Notes under the pieces: generated by a model | Seen by the model: only the letters and a program-made list of their open reading frames with translations | Told to the model about the DNA's origin: nothing | Database searches by the model: none | DNA from: Massilia frigida | GTDB taxonomy: Bacteria; Pseudomonadota; Gammaproteobacteria; Burkholderiales; Burkholderiaceae_D | Length of the DNA: 64,000 nt | Direction of reading: 5' to 3' | Assembly (NCBI RefSeq): GCF_011682175.1 | Contig: NZ_WHJG01000026.1 | Coordinates: 1-64,000 of the forward strand | Shown: piece by piece, positions 49,147-60,262 of the stretch | Layout: each line of letters begins with the position of its first letter | Position numbering within the stretch: position 1 is the first letter of the stretch | Position numbers and translations under genes: made by a program

Positions 49147-50055
49147 TTAAACGGTGCCCGGGCGCAAGGGCACGAAGTGGCAGCCTTCCAGGGTTTCGCT
49201 CATCCATTCGGCCTTGCCGGTGCGGGTGATCAATTGCAGGTGCTGGACCTGCGCACCCACCGGGGCGACCAGGCGGCCGCCCACGTTGAGCTGCTCCAGC
49301 AGTGCCTGCGGCACTTCCAGACCGGCCGCAGCCAGGATGATACCGTCGAATGGGGCGGCTTGGGGCAAGCCTAGCATACCATCTCCGTAGTGCAAGCGCA
49401 GATTCACGATGCGCAGGTGGCGCAGATTGGTCTTGGCCAGCTCGTGCAATTGACGAATCCGCTCGACCGAATACACCTCTTTGGCGATGCACGAGAGCAC
49501 CGCCGCCTGGTAGCCGCAGCCGGTGCCGATCTCCAGCACCCGGTTCAGGGAGGCGCCGTTGCGCAGCACTTCGAGCATGCGCGCCACGATGTAGGGACGC
49601 GAAATGGTCTGGTTGTGGCCGATCGGCAAGGAGGCATCGATATACGCCTGGGCCGACAGGGCCGGCTCGATGAAGCGGTGGCGCTGCACGGTTTCGAGCG
49701 CGCCCAGCACCACCGTATCCTTGACGCCCTGGCGCGCCACGCGCGCCACCATGGCGCGCCGGATCGCGTCCGACACGCCCATGTCGGGCCGCGGCGCCAC
49801 CAGCGGCAGCGGCTGGGCGCGCAGCAAGGCGTCGCTGTGCGACTTCGAGGGCGAAGCCGCCACCCGCGGCACGTAGGCCTTCGCGCCGTTCGGCTGCGCG
49901 CCGTTGCCGGCGGCATTCCGGGTTGCGGTCTGGGGCGTCGCCACTTGCGGTTTGGCAACCCTGGCGGGCGCAAACGCCGGACTCTTGCGCGCATCGCCCG
50001 TCACCGACGACAGCGGCAAGGGGAAAGTGCTGCGTTTGTCCGGCTTGTCGCTCAT
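49147..50055 (-). CDS. pcm: Protein-L-isoaspartate O-methyltransferase
   Basis: A 302-residue repair methyltransferase for isoaspartyl residues in aged proteins. [33 protein letters not shown] and the C-terminal [11 protein letters not shown] match Pcm. An N-terminal extension of about 90 residues, rich in Ala, Pro and Lys and probably disordered, precedes the domain. The start overlaps the surE stop (ATGA), so the two are coupled. Confidence 0.95.
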
Positions 50056-50789
50056 GCCAGTGCGCCCGACAGCAGCGCCAGCTGGTCGCGATGGGTCAGG
50101 TCGACCTGGAGCGGGGTGATCGAGACCTCGCCCTGGGCGGTGGCATGGAAATCGGTGCCCTCGCCGGCATCGCGCGTGGCGCCCGGCGGCCCGATCCAGA
50201 AAATTTCGCGCCCGCGCGGGTCGCGCCCGCGGATCACCGGCTCGGCCTGGTGACGCCGCCCCAGCCGGGTCGCGCGCACCGTGCCCAGGGCTGCGTAGGG
50301 CAGGTTCGGAATGTTCACGTTGAGCAAGTATGGCGATGGCAGCGCGTCGAAGCGGCGCAGCACGATGTCGCGCGCCAGGCGGGCGGCGGCATCGATGTGC
50401 TCCCAGCCGTGCGCCACCTGGGAAAAGGCGATCGCCGGAATGCCGAACAGATAACCCTCGGTCGCGGCCGCCACCGTGCCGGAATACAGGGTGTCGTCGC
50501 CCATGTTCTGGCCATTGTTGATGCCGGACACCACCAGGTCGGGGCGGTAGTCGAGCATGCCGGTCAGGGCGATGTGGACGCAGTCGGTCGGGGTACCGTT
50601 GACGAAGTAAAAGCCGTTGGCCGCCTGTTGCACTGACAGCGGGCGGTCCAGCGACAGTGAATTGGACGCGCCGGAGCGGTTGCTGTCGGGCGCCACGACG
50701 ACGATCTCGGCCACCTGGGCGAGCGCCTCGGCCAGGGCCTGGATGCCGGGAGCGAGGTAGCCGTCGTCATTGCTGATAAGAATTCTCAT
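50052..50789 (-). CDS. surE: 5'/3'-nucleotidase SurE
   Basis: A 245-residue survival protein and metal-dependent nucleotidase. The N-terminal [12 protein letters not shown] carries the two metal-binding Asp residues; [15 protein letters not shown] and [10 protein letters not shown] are the other family blocks. It starts the surE-pcm-nlpD-rpoS operon. The TIR module lies directly upstream on the same strand with no terminator seen, so read-through into this operon is possible. Confidence 0.97.
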
Positions 50790-50850
50790 GCACCGATTTT
50801 ACCCGATGCAATGAGCGCCACGCTGGCCCGCGCCCAACAAATTATGCGGC

Positions 50851-50926
50851 GTGCTACGCGACACGCTACGCGACGTGCTAGGCGACGCGCTAGGCGACGC
50901 GCTAGGCGACGCGCTAGGCGACGCGC
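50851..50926. repeat. 12-bp tandem repeat array (six copies)
   Basis: Six units of 12 bases (consensus GCGCTAGGCGAC; the first two read with CTACGCGAC) from 50851 to 50922, plus four further bases. The last three units are identical. It starts 12 bases beyond the stop of the ATPase/TPR gene and ends 62 bases before surE starts. Copy number may vary between strains. Confidence 0.9.
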
Positions 50927-50938
50927 GCCAGCCGGGCC

Positions 50939-53299
50939 TTAGCGGGCGCTGACCGGGCGCCCGCCGACGGCATCGGTCAGCGCCTGTTGCAGTGCCGACA
51001 CTTCGTCCTGGGCGAAAGCGAGCAGCGCATCCTTGTCGTTGTTGCGCTGATAGACCTGCTTGATCAGGGCCACCCCGCGCAGGCGCAGCAGCGGCGGCAC
51101 ATGGCGCCGCAACACGCTTTTGCGCAGGCTGTCGGCCAGCACGCGCGCCTCGCGCTCGCTGCGCTGGTCGATCAATTCCTGCAGCTGGGCCAGCTTGTGC
51201 GCGAGGCCGTCGCTGCCGTCGGCGGCGTCGAGGATGCCGCTGCGCCGCGCGCCGCCCGGCTGCCCGCTGTCGGGCAGCTTGCGCGCCTCGCCGCCATAGC
51301 CATGGCGCGCCGGGGCCGGGTCGCTCTCGCGGGCGGGCGCGTCGCCCGTGCCGCGCGCCTGCTCGCGCATGTCGACCAGTTTCTGGCGCAGGCGCCGCGC
51401 CGCGTCCAGGTCGCCCTGCTCGCTCAGGGTCGAGGCCAGCCGGGTCTGGCTGGTGATGGTGTCGGGATGGTCGGCCCCGAGGCAGCGCTCGCGGCTTTTG
51501 GCCAACAGTTCGAGCATCCCGCGCACCCCGCCCAGGTCGCTCTGGGCCGCCATGATCTCGGCCAGCAGTTCGCGCGCCTGCATCGTGGCTGGATGGTCGG
51601 GCCCGGCGTGGCGTTCGCGCGCGCCGGCCACCCCTTCCTGCAGCTTGCGCGCATTGCCCAGGTCGCCCAATTCCAGCAGCAGGGCCGCCAATTGCTGGGC
51701 GCAGCGCAGGCTGTCCTCGTGCTCGCCGCCGAGCAGGCGCTCGCGTCCTTCCAGCACCCGTTCGAAGACCATGCGCGCGCGGCTGAATTCGCCGTGGCGG
51801 GCCAGGGTCTGGGCCTGCCCCGCCAGGCGGTCGAGGGTGAGCATGTGGCCGCAGCCGAGCACGCGCTCGCTGGCCTCGATCAGCTGTTCGTGCAGGGCCA
51901 GCGCACGCGCGAAGTCGCCGCCCTCGGCCAGGGTGGCGGCCAGCGCGGCGCGCGCGGCCAGGGTGTCGGGATGGTCGGTCCCGAGCAGGCGCACGCAATC
52001 GTCGGCCAGCAACTCTTGCAGCAGGCGCGCCTCGGCCAGGCGGCCCTGCTGGCGCAGCAGCGCCGCCAGCAGGGCCCGGCTGGCGCGGGTGTCGGCATGC
52101 TCGTCGCCGAGCAGGCGCTGGCGCAGGCTGGTGCTTTCTTCGAAGCAGGCGATGGCTTCCTCGACCCGCCCCGTGCCCTGGTACAGCACGCCGAGCTGGT
52201 GCAGGTCGAGCGCCAGCGGCAGCGACAGCGCGGTGGCGCTGCCGCGCCCGAGGCGCTCGCGCGCCGCGCCGATGGCGGCGCACAGGCAAACCTCGGCGTG
52301 CGATTGCCAGGGAAAGTAATTGCCGCTCATCCAGTCGAGCAAGGTGGAAAAGGTGCGCGCCAGCGAAAAGCGGTCGCCATCGCGGCCGGCGCCGGGCGCG
52401 AACGCATCGCCGGCGGCCACGGCATGGATCTGCTGCAACTGGATTTCATCGAAATAGCTGTCGAGCGACACCCGGGCCACGCCGTACCACTGGCGCAGCA
52501 ATTGCTCGATCACGCTCTGGTAGCCGGGCAGCGCGCGCTGCGAATCGCCACGGCGCCACTGCTGGCGGCGCTGCACGTCGGCGCTGTCGACCGAAGCTGG
52601 CAGCGGGTAGACCAGCAGCGGGCGCTGTTCGTCCTCGTGGCAACAGCGGTAATCGATGGCGCGCGTGACCGCCCCGGCCAGCCCGTCCAGGCTGCGCTGG
52701 CTGGGCGTGAACACGGCCACCAGCCGGCGCGGCAGCAGGGTGGTGCAGATGCTGACGGCGGCCGAGCGCCCGCTGGGCGCATCGACCAGCACATGCGCGA
52801 AACGCTGCGCCAGATAGTCGCCGAAACAGCGGAACAGGGCCGGACAGGCATCGAACAAGCCATCCCAGTCGAACTGGTCGGCGCGTTCGCCGTAACTGTC
52901 GTCGAAGCGGCCGGCGCGCATCAGGTACAGCGGGCGGCTCTGGTCGACCCGCTCGACGAAGGGTTCCCAGTCGACCGCGTCGAGCACCTGGCGCGCCAGC
53001 GCCGCATCGTCGCGCGCCGCCGGGCCGCGCCCGAGCAGGCGCAGGTGATCGCGGCACGCCTGGAAGTATTCCAGCAGGCCCGGCCGTTCAGCGGGGCGCC
53101 CGGCGTCCTGGTGCAGGCCGGGCGCGGCGGTATCGAAGTCGATCATCAGCACCGGCACGGTTGCGTTGTGCCGCCCGGCCAGCAGCAGCGCCATGCTCGA
53201 CAGGGCCATGCTGCGCGCCGGGCCGCTCTCGAACGAGTAGAAGGTCGTCACCTCGCCCGGGCTGGCCAGGGGCGGTAGAGTAATGCGTTTGATTTCCAT
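50939..53299 (-). CDS. KGGVGR-variant ATPase-like protein with TPR repeats
   Basis: A 786-residue protein in three parts. Residues 1-250 follow the SIMIBI (MinD/ParA-like) ATPase pattern: TFYSFESGPARSMALSSMAL at 19-38 occupies the place of the KGGVGRS phosphate loop but with Lys24 replaced by Glu and Gly by Ser, Pro and Ala; IDFDTAAPGL (53-62) and HVLVDAPSG (about 160) are kept. ATP hydrolysis is therefore doubtful. Residues about 335-640 are kinesin-light-chain-like TPRs, each with LG-x2-HPDT-type turns. The C-terminus (about 640-786) is charged and helical. AAGAGGAG lies inside the end of the TIR gene, 4 bases before the ATG, so the two are coupled. Likely a scaffold or sensor with the TIR protein. 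Confidence 0.7.
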   Translation of the reverse strand: MEIKRITLPPLASPGEVTTFYSFESGPARSMALSSMALLLAGRHNATVPVLMIDFDTAAPGLHQDAGRPAERPGLLEYFQACRDHLRLLGRGPAARDDAALARQVLDAVDWEPFVERVDQSRPLYLMRAGRFDDSYGERADQFDWDGLFDACPALFRCFGDYLAQRFAHVLVDAPSGRSAAVSICTTLLPRRLVAVFTPSQRSLDGLAGAVTRAIDYRCCHEDEQRPLLVYPLPASVDSADVQRRQQWRRGDSQRALPGYQSVIEQLLRQWYGVARVSLDSYFDEIQLQQIHAVAAGDAFAPGAGRDGDRFSLARTFSTLLDWMSGNYFPWQSHAEVCLCAAIGAARERLGRGSATALSLPLALDLHQLGVLYQGTGRVEEAIACFEESTSLRQRLLGDEHADTRASRALLAALLRQQGRLAEARLLQELLADDCVRLLGTDHPDTLAARAALAATLAEGGDFARALALHEQLIEASERVLGCGHMLTLDRLAGQAQTLARHGEFSRARMVFERVLEGRERLLGGEHEDSLRCAQQLAALLLELGDLGNARKLQEGVAGARERHAGPDHPATMQARELLAEIMAAQSDLGGVRGMLELLAKSRERCLGADHPDTITSQTRLASTLSEQGDLDAARRLRQKLVDMREQARGTGDAPARESDPAPARHGYGGEARKLPDSGQPGGARRSGILDAADGSDGLAHKLAQLQELIDQRSEREARVLADSLRKSVLRRHVPPLLRLRGVALIKQVYQRNNDKDALLAFAQDEVSALQQALTDAVGGRPVSAR

Positions 53300-53309
53300 G
53301 TTGCTCCTC

Positions 53310-53921
53310 TTATTTTTTCGGAAAAGTCAGATCCGGCAGATCGCGCCACACGGGTGGGACATCGGGAAGCACGAATTGGTTGCAATCATGGCCGACGGGG
53401 GTGTACTTTTTTAGGTATTCATATTGGATGACAATCCTGTTCACGATTTTCTTGATATCGGGCAGGAACTCGGGATGCGATTTCAAGTCGCCCGTCGCCA
53501 TCGTGAAATGCGAAAAATCCACGTAAAAGCTGGACGCGGCGATCTGGGGCGGCAGGCGGGCCGGATGCATGGTCATGATCACCGGAATGATCAGGTGGCT
53601 GGGCAAGGTGTACCAGCGACTTCGCTCGGCCTCGAGCGCCTGCATGGCGGCGAACTCGCGCCGCGTATAGCCATGCGCCTCGTACTTGGGCGTGTAGATC
53701 AGGATCATGGTCACGCTCTCGCACAGCGCGCGCGCGATGCGGCGGTCGATATCGTCGCCGCCGCCGAGCTGTTCCGTATCAATGAACAGCTCGTCTTCAT
53801 TGTCAAAATACGGTTCCAGATAGCAGCGGATGGCATCCGACAGGGCAATCTTGAACGCGTTCATCAGTCCATCGCGGCGGCCGTGGGCGTAACTAAAGAA
53901 ACAGCCATAACGGATTGCCAT
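53310..53921 (-). CDS. TIR-domain protein
   Basis: A 203-residue protein consisting mostly of a TIR-like domain. FFSYAHGRRDG (8-18) is the box 1 strand and loop; LFIDTEQLGGGDDIDRRIARALCESV (45-70, given here by its ends) is box 2; MILIYTPKYEAHGYTRREF (72-90) places E89 where the catalytic glutamate of NAD-cleaving TIRs normally lies. The C-terminal part ends with LPDVPPVWRDLPDLTFPKK. GGGAGG upstream fixes the start at 53921. It lies first in a two-gene unit with the ATPase/TPR protein. Such TIR proteins act in anti-phage or cell-suicide signalling, or as adaptors; which one cannot be told from sequence. Confidence 0.75.
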   Translation of the reverse strand: MAIRYGCFFSYAHGRRDGLMNAFKIALSDAIRCYLEPYFDNEDELFIDTEQLGGGDDIDRRIARALCESVTMILIYTPKYEAHGYTRREFAAMQALEAERSRWYTLPSHLIIPVIMTMHPARLPPQIAASSFYVDFSHFTMATGDLKSHPEFLPDIKKIVNRIVIQYEYLKKYTPVGHDCNQFVLPDVPPVWRDLPDLTFPKK

Positions 53922-54099
53922 GTCAGCCTCCCTCTCCTGTGGTCCCACTGAAGCGCTCGCGCTGTCGACTTTAACAAGCGCGACAGAGGTGGCCTTGCGC
54001 GTACGCAAACGGCTTGGCGGCCCGCCAGCGCGGAATTCAGGCATAATCAAAAAACCAAACGGTCGTACTATTTTTTAACAATACTCATCGGAGACACCA

Positions 54100-55080
54100 A
54101 TGAAAGCCGTGGTTTGCAAAGCGTGGGGGCTGCCCGACAGCCTGGTAGTGGAACAAGTGGCGGCCCCGGTGGCCGGACCGGGCCAGGTGCTGCTGGACGT
54201 CAAGGCGGCCGGGGTCAACTTCCCGGACGTGCTGATCATCCAGGGCAAGTACCAGTTCAAGCCCGAGCTGCCATTTACCCCGGGAAGCGAACTGTCGGGC
54301 GTGATCAGCGCGCTGGGCGCGGGTGTCACCAACGTCAAGCTGGGCGACCGGGTGATCGCGTTTACCGCCCAGGGCGCGTTCGCACAGCAAATCGTGGTGC
54401 CGGCCCAGGCTGTCATGCCGATGCCGCCCGGAATGGATTTCGACACCGCCGCCGCCATCACCCTCACCTACGGCACCTCGCACCACGCGGTGCTCGACCG
54501 CGCCGCGCTCAAGGCTGGCGAAACCATGCTGGTGCTGGGCGCGGCCGGCGGCGTGGGCTTGGCGGCCATTGAAATCGGCAAGGCGCTGGGCGCGCGCGTG
54601 ATTGCGGCGGCGTCAAGCGATGAAAAACTGGCGGTGTGCCGCGAGCATGGCGCCGACGCCACCATCAATTATAGTACCGAAGATTTGCGCGAAGCGATCA
54701 AGGCCGCCACCGACGGCAAGGGGCCGGACGTGATTTACGATCCGGTCGGCGGCATCTACGCCGAACCGGCCTTCCGGTCGATCGGCTGGCGCGGGCGCTA
54801 CCTGGTGGTCGGTTTTGCCAACGGCGAGATTCCCAAGCTGCCGCTCAACCTGACCCTGCTCAAGGGCGCGTCGCTGATGGGCGTGTTCTGGGGCGAGTTC
54901 GCCAAGCGCGAACCGAAGGCCAACCTGGCGGCCATGCGCGAACTGATGGGATGGCTGGCCGAAGGCAAGATCCGGCCGCGCATTTCAGGCCGCTACACGC
55001 TGGAACAGACGGCCCAGGCCCTGAACGACATGGCCGCGCGCAAGGTCACCGGCAAGGTGGTGATCGTACCGGACGCGTAA
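54100..55080 (+). CDS. NADPH:quinone oxidoreductase family protein
   Basis: A 326-residue zinc-free medium-chain dehydrogenase/reductase. GVNFPDVLIIQGKYQ is the quinone-reductase signature region, and LVLGAAGGVGLAAIEIGKAL the NADPH-binding Rossmann turn. The usual zinc ligands are absent. GGAG upstream fixes the start. It is divergent from the TIR gene over 178 bases. Confidence 0.9.
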   Translation: MKAVVCKAWGLPDSLVVEQVAAPVAGPGQVLLDVKAAGVNFPDVLIIQGKYQFKPELPFTPGSELSGVISALGAGVTNVKLGDRVIAFTAQGAFAQQIVVPAQAVMPMPPGMDFDTAAAITLTYGTSHHAVLDRAALKAGETMLVLGAAGGVGLAAIEIGKALGARVIAAASSDEKLAVCREHGADATINYSTEDLREAIKAATDGKGPDVIYDPVGGIYAEPAFRSIGWRGRYLVVGFANGEIPKLPLNLTLLKGASLMGVFWGEFAKREPKANLAAMRELMGWLAEGKIRPRISGRYTLEQTAQALNDMAARKVTGKVVIVPDA

Positions 55081-59233: not shown

Positions 59234-59356
59234 GTGTGGCATTCCAGACAAGTTCATTTCAAAAATTTCATCAACTGCTGCCCAAAAACGCATACAATCG
59301 GAAACAATTTTTGTCGCACAGAAAATTGTCTCCGCTTGCAACAAGGAGGCAACTCA

Positions 59357-60262
59357 GTGCATAGTTTAATCTACGGCGCCGTTGCAGCCAACACTATCGC
59401 ATACGACAGCCAAGACAGCCGTATGGTAACGCAGCCAGGACTTTACCCCAAGCTTATGAATGTATACAAGATCGAGGCCGGAACCGCGCAGCACATCGGT
59501 AATCGGCCGGAACAAACCAACCGGACCGCCTTGTTCACCGGAGCGCGCGCGCCCGGTTACATGATGGCGGTGCTGGCCGACGGCGTGTCCGGCGGCGCCA
59601 TCGCGTCCGACCAGGTGCTGCTGACGGCCAAGCAGCAGTTCGACAATTTCAAGCCGGGCGACGATCCCAGCATCGAGCGCTTGCAGGGATTGCTGCGCGA
59701 CATCGTGCTCGAAACCCACACAGTTCTCAAGCTCAATGCGCTGACCAGCAAGACCGAGCCGCATACCACCTTCGTCGGGCTGGTGATCACGCCCAAGGGC
59801 ACGGCGGTGTGGGCGCACGTGGGCGACTCGCGCCTGTACCGCTTCACCCGGGCCGAGTGCGCGGTGCGCACCAGCGACCTGCCCTACATCGAGCATCTGG
59901 TCGGCACCGACAAGCTGCCGCTGGAAGCGGCCAAGAATCACCGCCATTCCAAGCTGCTGGTCAATGTGCTGGGCAACGGCCGCAAGGAGCCGTTCGTGGC
60001 GGTGGGCCACCACGATAACCTGGCGGCGGGCGACACCTTTTTGCTGGCCTCGGACGGGCTGTGGCACTTCTTCACGGACAACGAACTGGGCGCCGTGACG
60101 AACAAGAACACCCCGCGCCAGGCGTCCGAACTGCTGATCAACAAGGCGGTGGAACGGGCCCACGGCAAGGGCGGCAATTGCACCATGGCGATCGTGAAAC
60201 TGGTCAAGCCGCCCAAGGAAGTGCCGAACTACACGGTGGAACGGATGCGCCGGGCGGTCTGA
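59357..60262 (+). CDS. PP2C-family serine/threonine phosphatase
   Basis: A 301-residue metal-dependent protein phosphatase. VLADGVSGG is the first metal motif, HTTFVGLVI ... AHVGDSRLYRF the second, and LLASDGLWHFF and GGNCTMAIVKL the last ones. GTG at 59357 is the start: AAGGAGG lies seven bases upstream. A longer open frame upstream overlaps ydcH and is not used. No matching serine/threonine kinase is in the window. Confidence 0.88.
   Translation: MHSLIYGAVAANTIAYDSQDSRMVTQPGLYPKLMNVYKIEAGTAQHIGNRPEQTNRTALFTGARAPGYMMAVLADGVSGGAIASDQVLLTAKQQFDNFKPGDDPSIERLQGLLRDIVLETHTVLKLNALTSKTEPHTTFVGLVITPKGTAVWAHVGDSRLYRFTRAECAVRTSDLPYIEHLVGTDKLPLEAAKNHRHSKLLVNVLGNGRKEPFVAVGHHDNLAAGDTFLLASDGLWHFFTDNELGAVTNKNTPRQASELLINKAVERAHGKGGNCTMAIVKLVKPPKEVPNYTVERMRRAV

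Follow-up and report, generated by a model that had tools for sequence, protein, structure and literature searches.

The window, a 64,000-nucleotide stretch of Massilia frigida DNA (contig NZ_WHJG01000026.1, positions 1 to 64,000), carries two adjacent genes that encode a small TIR-domain protein and a larger partner in which a degenerate ParA/MinD-fold domain is joined to a TPR array, and this pair was found to be a near-core, vertically inherited operon at one fixed chromosomal site. The anatomy of the pair is secure (Table 1), and its unusual point is the setting, that of a fixed, vertically inherited and strongly conserved TIR operon beside a stationary-phase survival operon. In soil and water bacteria related to Massilia, Duganella and Janthinobacterium the pair keeps to one fixed chromosomal spot, and this suggests that it belongs to the cell's own equipment for stress or self-destruction and is not an anti-virus gene that roams between genomes; our confidence is evenly poised on the reading that a fixed TIR NADase is controlled here by a ParA-fold scaffold bearing a TPR sensor.

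A search with the window TIR gave matches in 96 of 294 genomes, belonging to 5 of the 44 genera of the family, and one with the partner N-domain gave them in 98 of 294, three additional genera appearing only at E between 1e-13 and 1e-6. Carriers of the pair, in five genera of one family, include relatives of Massilia/Telluria, Duganella/Rugamonas and Janthinobacterium (the named-genome scan covering the best 80 of 144 loci), and the TIR was present in 57/62, 74/74 (one of these a remnant, G901) and 36/40 genomes in three genus tallies. An order-wide profile search recovered it in 4 of 300 genomes, all from two of the same five genera, and no match to the pair was found in the plasmid and phage records searched. 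The TIR tree follows the genera, with 5 genus changes against a minimum of 4. Downstream of the pair and on the same strand, surE was found in 91 of 95 loci (counted outside loci L132-L136), followed by pcm, nlpD and rpoS as far as the contig reaches, and the four loci without a visible surE were contig ends or short contigs. Four of 11 outgroup genera without the pair show the quinone reductase gene facing surE across approximately 104-110 bp, a junction that is likely the empty site of the pair. The fixed site, together with retention of the pair, points to a single entry into the chromosome, with later loss from five Telluria-type genomes, one of which keeps a TPR remnant.

The TIR is conserved about like surE. 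Median ratios of non-synonymous to synonymous substitution (dN/dS) for TIR and surE in four genera were 0.032/0.045, 0.092/0.127, 0.122/0.134 and 0.111/0.146, TIR being below surE each time (seven loci, L040, L075, L082, L127, L129, L130 and L131, and any pair beyond the dS bounds are omitted from this comparison), and in three of five pairs near the window the TIR lay above surE. Within the proteins, the TIR was the slowest and the TPR part the fastest-evolving in both Janthinobacterium-type rows (medians: TIR 0.018, partner residues 1-209 0.079, residues 210-355 0.040, TPR 0.133) and Duganella-type rows (0.077, 0.202, 0.235 and 0.361). The five window-near pairs gave TPR values of 0.36-0.45 and the order TIR < residues 1-209 < TPR in four, the exception being G192 with its TIR at 0.27. 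All values were below 1, and those of the TPR part below 0.5, with no sign of positive selection.

Membership of the 203-aa protein in the TIR superfamily, as the original prediction had proposed, was upheld both by its fold and by a Pfam TIR_2 (PF13676) score of 34.7 bits, over the curated cut-off of 28. The glutamate singled out in that prediction as the catalytic candidate, E89, was invariant in all 94 TIR rows compared (two short TIRs, G231 and G203, lie outside this count), its neighbours T86, R87 and R88 were conserved in at least 98% of them, and a weak profile alignment (E 0.72) places it on the Glu position of bacterial TIRs. From this fold and the invariant E89, NAD cleavage is the predicted activity.

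The partner was likewise as first described, its N-domain adopting a ParA/MinD-type fold that is followed by the TPRs. A true ParA P-loop reads KGGVGKT, and the position of the P-loop lysine was found to be Arg in 94 of 94 partners compared. The broken loop, on which the original prediction had centred and which is plainly readable as ESGPARS in the window beside an intact DFDTAAPGL, proved to be real in this lineage and not to define the system: the KGG[TVA]GR[ST] form is present in 47 of the 94 partners, comprising every Janthinobacterium-type row (25) and 22 of the 26 Duganella-type ones. Degraded loops mark the remaining 47 (22 Telluria-type rows, 16 of Massilia type including the window, 5 of psychrophilic Massilia type and 4 of Duganella type), the signature lysine having become Glu or Asp or instead, in the Duganella-type rows, Arg (3) or Gln (1). 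When the N-domain tree was rooted on four distant KGGVGR proteins, all reading KGGVGR[ST], the main loss fell on the Massilia/Telluria branch (the count of loop changes omits seven rows without a pattern-readable loop, six of them ingroup). At least two losses are required, because G235, which reads QDGCGRS, sits inside the loop-keeping part of the tree, and a long-branched Duganella-type trio may represent a third. On the evidence of this tree, the broken loop of the window is a late, lineage-specific end state of erosion and not a founding feature; because the loop is kept in half of the partners and its loss is confined to lineages, it is not the essence of the system. The N-domain/surE dN/dS ratio was 1.7 in Janthinobacterium-type, 2.5 in Duganella-type (mostly loop-keeping), 2.4 in Massilia-type and 3.4 in Telluria-type rows, with no clear split, and tighter constraint where the loop is kept is not claimed.

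Counted with a profile built on the window's own repeats, the partners hold 0-8 TPR units. Six Duganella-type partners of only 346-350 aa end after the ParA fold without TPRs, and three Telluria-type partners (417, 421 and 527 aa) scored 0 units by this profile, which diverged units may escape; the contigs of L040 and L075 stop within the partner gene, and both length and number of TPRs are underestimated for these two. Variable TPR positions tabulated over 20 Janthinobacterium-type rows gave no interpretable pattern.

Table 1. Features of the TIR gene pair and its surroundings in the window.
Feature	Position	Strand	Remarks
TIR protein, 203 aa, putative NAD-cleaving effector	53310..53921	(-)	
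E89 codon, candidate catalytic glutamate	53655..53657	(-)	invariant in 94/94 TIR rows; weak profile alignment onto Glu of bacterial TIRs
Gap of 10 nt between TIR and partner genes, ribosome-binding site GAGGAG	53300..53309	(-)	arrangement alike in nearest relatives
Partner protein, 786 aa, degenerate ParA/MinD-fold domain and TPR array	50939..53299	(-)	
ParA/MinD-fold domain, residues 12-335	52295..53266	(-)	
Degenerate P-loop ESGPARS, residues 24-30	53210..53230	(-)	KGG[TVA]GR[ST] in 47/94 partners
DFDTAAPGL motif, residues 54-62, kept	53114..53140	(-)	first Asp in 94/94, second Asp in 93/94 rows
Kinesin-light-chain-type TPR array, ~7 units of 42 aa, residues 366 to ~659	51323..52204	(-)	PF13374/PF13424; 7 units by repeat profile
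Promoter-like element of the pair: TTGCGTACGCGCAA, 21 nt, TAAAGT	53968..54008	(-)	TTG-N8-CAA, 21 or 22 nt, TA[GCA]AGT in 88/96 loci
surE, fixed downstream neighbour, then pcm, nlpD, rpoS	50052..50789	(-)	surE downstream in 91/95 loci
Promoter-like TTGC[TA]TC[AG]GGTAAAAT directly before surE	50790-50812, and same place in relatives		12 intergenic regions printed
Quinone oxidoreductase (PIG3 family), divergent neighbour	54100..55080	(+)	faces surE directly in 4/11 outgroup genera

The two genes, TIR first and partner second, were adjacent at 93 of 95 loci, one of the two unpaired loci being a clear partner deletion and the other cut by a contig end, and the refuting case of homologues that always stand apart and have intact loops is not the picture seen. 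Overlap of the translation signals, asserted in the original prediction, does not apply to the window, where the genes are separated; relatives show a 4-nt ATGA overlap in 19 of 93 pairs and a 1-nt overlap in one, the rest having gaps that are mostly short. In the Janthinobacterium-type genome G243 only the partner was deleted, and the TIR with its E89 persists. At another locus (G901, L267) an in-frame deletion has removed E89 together with the ParA domain, and the beginning of the TIR now runs directly into the TPR array. No proximity to defence genes was apparent: among 10 neighbouring open reading frames (ORFs) scanned, none had a defence family as its best match, and one matched no family. 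A defence island or mobile element was rejected as a description of this locus on these neighbours, the fixed site and the lack of plasmid or phage matches. A PP2C-type phosphatase (NF033484, 83.8 bits, cut-off 230) is encoded near the pair at 59336-60262.

The pair appears to be served by a promoter of its own. Within 250 bp upstream of the TIR start a TTG-N8-CAA dyad was found in 95 of 96 loci, against 2-5% in shuffles, and the dyad followed by TA[GCA]AGT after 21 nt (74 loci) or 22 nt (14 loci) was found in 88 of 96 against 8 of 19,200 shuffles; these 88 loci are not independent, many being close relatives, yet they span five genera. Six of the eight misses were the TPR-less Duganella-type loci, in which the dyad is kept before another sequence. 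The commonest letters of the dyad are TTGYGCNNGCGCAA, and its symmetry is imperfect, with at least 12 of 14 positions in 42 of 96 loci and 10 in the window. Class II activators sit near -40, and the dyad would be centred near -40, in an activator-like position, if TA[GCA]AGT is the -10 box. A consensus sigma-70 scan of the window stretch listed no promoter at all. The strict pattern occurred once in its own genome, at the pair, and for this reason the regulator could not be named. The element directly before surE is probably the surE promoter, and because this promoter-like sequence is shared by the 12 partner-surE regions printed the pair seems to form an operon of its own. In the partner-surE region of L092 a hairpin followed by a T run could be read by eye, and no terminator-like site was found in that of the window. 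The same region of the window holds, by eye, six 12-bp tandem units of the kind GCGTCGCCTAGC (50853-50924), with similar units in the relative G192 (L038) and none in the other intergenic regions printed.

A published RNA-seq comparison bears on when the pair may be expressed. It reports 31 genes as differentially expressed between Janthinobacterium sp. HH01 and an autoinducer-synthase mutant of this strain, and Table 3 of the article lists Jab_2c19720, a 'TIR domain containing protein', at log-fold -2.29 in the mutant comparison, as core genome except in J. sp. Marseille and with the JAI-1 motif marked present (PMC5080296). This is probably the TIR of the present pair, because 39 of 40 Duganella-type genomes hold the window-type TIR and further TIR_2 matches occur in 18 of 40; the portion of PMC3566124 available to us gave no rpoS or TIR locus tag to confirm the identity. 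Weighing against this identity, neither the window nor any of the 52 Duganella- and Janthinobacterium-type loci tested has an exact TTGAN6/7TCAA upstream; the motif was present in 3 of 16 Massilia loci, by eye within the promoter region of the divergent gene. Quorum-sensing control of the pair has the standing of a lead and not of a result.

Predicted conflict systems with TIR effectors and with MinD/ParA-like domains predicted to be inactive have been described, as have stand-alone peptide systems whose AP-ATPase bears an inactive MinD/ParA-like domain (PMC7159879, in the sections available), and the window pair would work like a reduced member of such systems. The likeness to the FxSxx-COOH clusters that had been pointed out at the start held good, FxsC and FxsT (NF040588 and NF040586; PMC7159879, same sections) being likewise a TIR-like protein beside a TPR protein. 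The window TIR reaches 38.2 bits against the FxsC cut-off of 130 and the partner 131.6 against 300 for FxsT, where only the TPR part (residues 367-652) is matched, and across the phylum FxsC_Nterm had one match among 299 genomes, below its cut-off. FxSxx-COOH systems differ in that the window pair has no AP-ATPase match and lies at a betaproteobacterial near-core locus. Among frames shorter than 160 aa in window positions 42,001-63,999 only a 37-aa chance frame ends in FxSxx, and no radical SAM maturase FxsB was present among the 10 neighbouring ORFs, no dedicated FxsB search having been made; a radical SAM/FxSxx cluster was accordingly not found by either route.

The partner N-domain is also homologous (E 9e-16) to the KGGVGR-motif variant AAA family (NF047398), which shares the ParA/MinD fold and sometimes has TPRs, but at 58.7 bits it falls under the cut-off of 90 and the motif itself is lost in the window lineage. 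Other KGGVGR proteins were over the cut-off in 35 of 299 genomes of the phylum; of ten scanned, four have TPRs over the Pfam cut-off and one (L245) carries the KGGVGR-type domain in one frame with an Mrr nuclease and NACHT, possibly a conflict-system architecture. Thirty-seven ORFs selected from 70 neighbours at 30 loci with short flanks included two NACHT, one HEPN, one AbiV and one MqsA (under cut-off) and no TIR. In two genera (L135 and L136/L233, on contigs of 196,870 and 23,116 bases) a KGGVGR protein of approximately 620 aa lies directly downstream of a small MqsA-like protein (26.4 bits at L233, cut-off 30; its L135 counterpart similar by eye). From SPARTA TIR-APAZ, AbTir and Thoeris type III ThcB4 the window TIR differs in having no adjoining Argonaute/APAZ or Thoeris partner, and it reaches only 19.8 of 220 bits for ThcB4. 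McdA, Soj and MinD, as ParA-family ATPases, differ from the partner in the Arg that it has for the P-loop lysine, in its loss of the signature lysine in 47 of 94 rows and in its usual fusion to TPRs. PADLOC models gave no strong match (best E 9e-4 for PDC-S66 and 0.0027 for PDC-M28B), and apart from the one table row in PMC5080296 no earlier description of the pair was found in the open-access literature that could be consulted, passages of PMC8195603 and PMC8476154 among it.

The ancestor shared by Massilia/Telluria, Duganella/Rugamonas and Janthinobacterium most likely acquired the pair in a single event that placed it between the surE-pcm-nlpD-rpoS operon and the divergent gene for the quinone reductase, and there it has been retained as near-core ever since. 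The TIR would be the enzyme, which when clustered may cleave NAD+ and so drain the cell or make an ADP-ribose-type signal. The partner would be both scaffold and sensor, its ParA/MinD-fold domain docking and arranging TIR molecules and its TPR array binding the trigger. The ancestral ParA fold probably bound nucleotide or phosphate through the KGGxGR loop, and because this loop has eroded in Massilia/Telluria, switching there may be free of classical ATP cycling. The dedicated promoter with its conserved TTG-N8-CAA operator would set expression, probably tied to high cell density or stationary-phase entry. The most likely role would then be that of a switch that halts growth or kills the cell on stress or infection, and the function may be described as a density- or stress-gated loss of NAD, perhaps triggered by phage.

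Several other explanations were weighed. The pair may be purely an anti-phage abortive-infection system, in which the TPR part recognises a phage protein and the TIR drains NAD+, like other TIR systems of bacteria, with fixation in the genera incidental. This is an improbable reading though a serious one, for SPARTA TIR-APAZ and AbTir share the TIR fold (identity 11-19% in structural alignments), the TPR part is the most rapidly changing one and its number of units is variable, inactive MinD/ParA domains occur in predicted conflict systems (PMC7159879, as above) and some KGGVGR-type proteins are fused to Mrr and NACHT or lie beside NACHT, HEPN, AbiV and MqsA-like ORFs. Against it, non-immune TIRs fit the window TIR fold equally well, the TPR values give no hint of positive selection, none of the 10 neighbours scanned best matches a defence family, and the pair is near-universal at a fixed housekeeping locus, has no plasmid or phage match and includes a TIR about as constrained as surE. 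The same distribution, with the lack of plasmid or phage matches and of a strong PADLOC match, tells against the roaming anti-phage pair that the original prediction had envisaged, of which the TIR fold, the stable two-gene pairing and the degenerate ParA-type domain with TPRs were supported. A core gene may nonetheless serve in defence.

We consider it unlikely that the TIR is a non-enzymatic protein-protein scaffold with which the ParA/TPR protein organises a stationary-phase complex, for example one regulating surE-rpoS functions, given the conservation of E89 and its neighbours and the separate promoter-like sequence of surE, with the L092 hairpin (none such in the window). The tight coupling of the two genes and their order would suit a toxin-antitoxin pair, with the TIR kept silent by its partner; that the G243 TIR outlives its partner with E89 intact, that six partners lack any TPR and that one locus is an in-frame TIR-TPR fusion remnant without E89 make this very unlikely. 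That the partner is a housekeeping ATPase of the ParA type and the TIR lies beside it by chance hardly deserves credence: KGGxGR[ST] is kept in 47 of 94 partners, but the P-loop lysine is Arg throughout, the gene is retained where the loop is lost, and in almost every genome the two genes are either both present or both missing. A more novel reading, of a TIR effector domesticated into a core switch of cell fate that is gated by quorum sensing or stationary phase, with one insertion beside the surE-rpoS survival operon, its own activator-type promoter, a scaffold that lost nucleotide switching in one branch and the TPR sensor in another, and a TIR constrained about like a housekeeping gene, is put forward only tentatively and is itself rather doubtful as a whole.

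Bacterial TIR enzymes have usually been studied as mobile, patchily distributed defence genes. Here the TIR is a fixed and strongly conserved gene of whole genera that adjoins a stationary-phase survival operon and has its own conserved promoter-like element. The genera also form a natural experiment, with a KGGxGR scaffold in Janthinobacterium, a broken loop in Massilia/Telluria, no TPRs in six Duganella-type species and no partner in one Janthinobacterium-type species, and this series of partner variants would make the effect of ParA-fold pseudo-ATPases on TIR enzymes directly testable.

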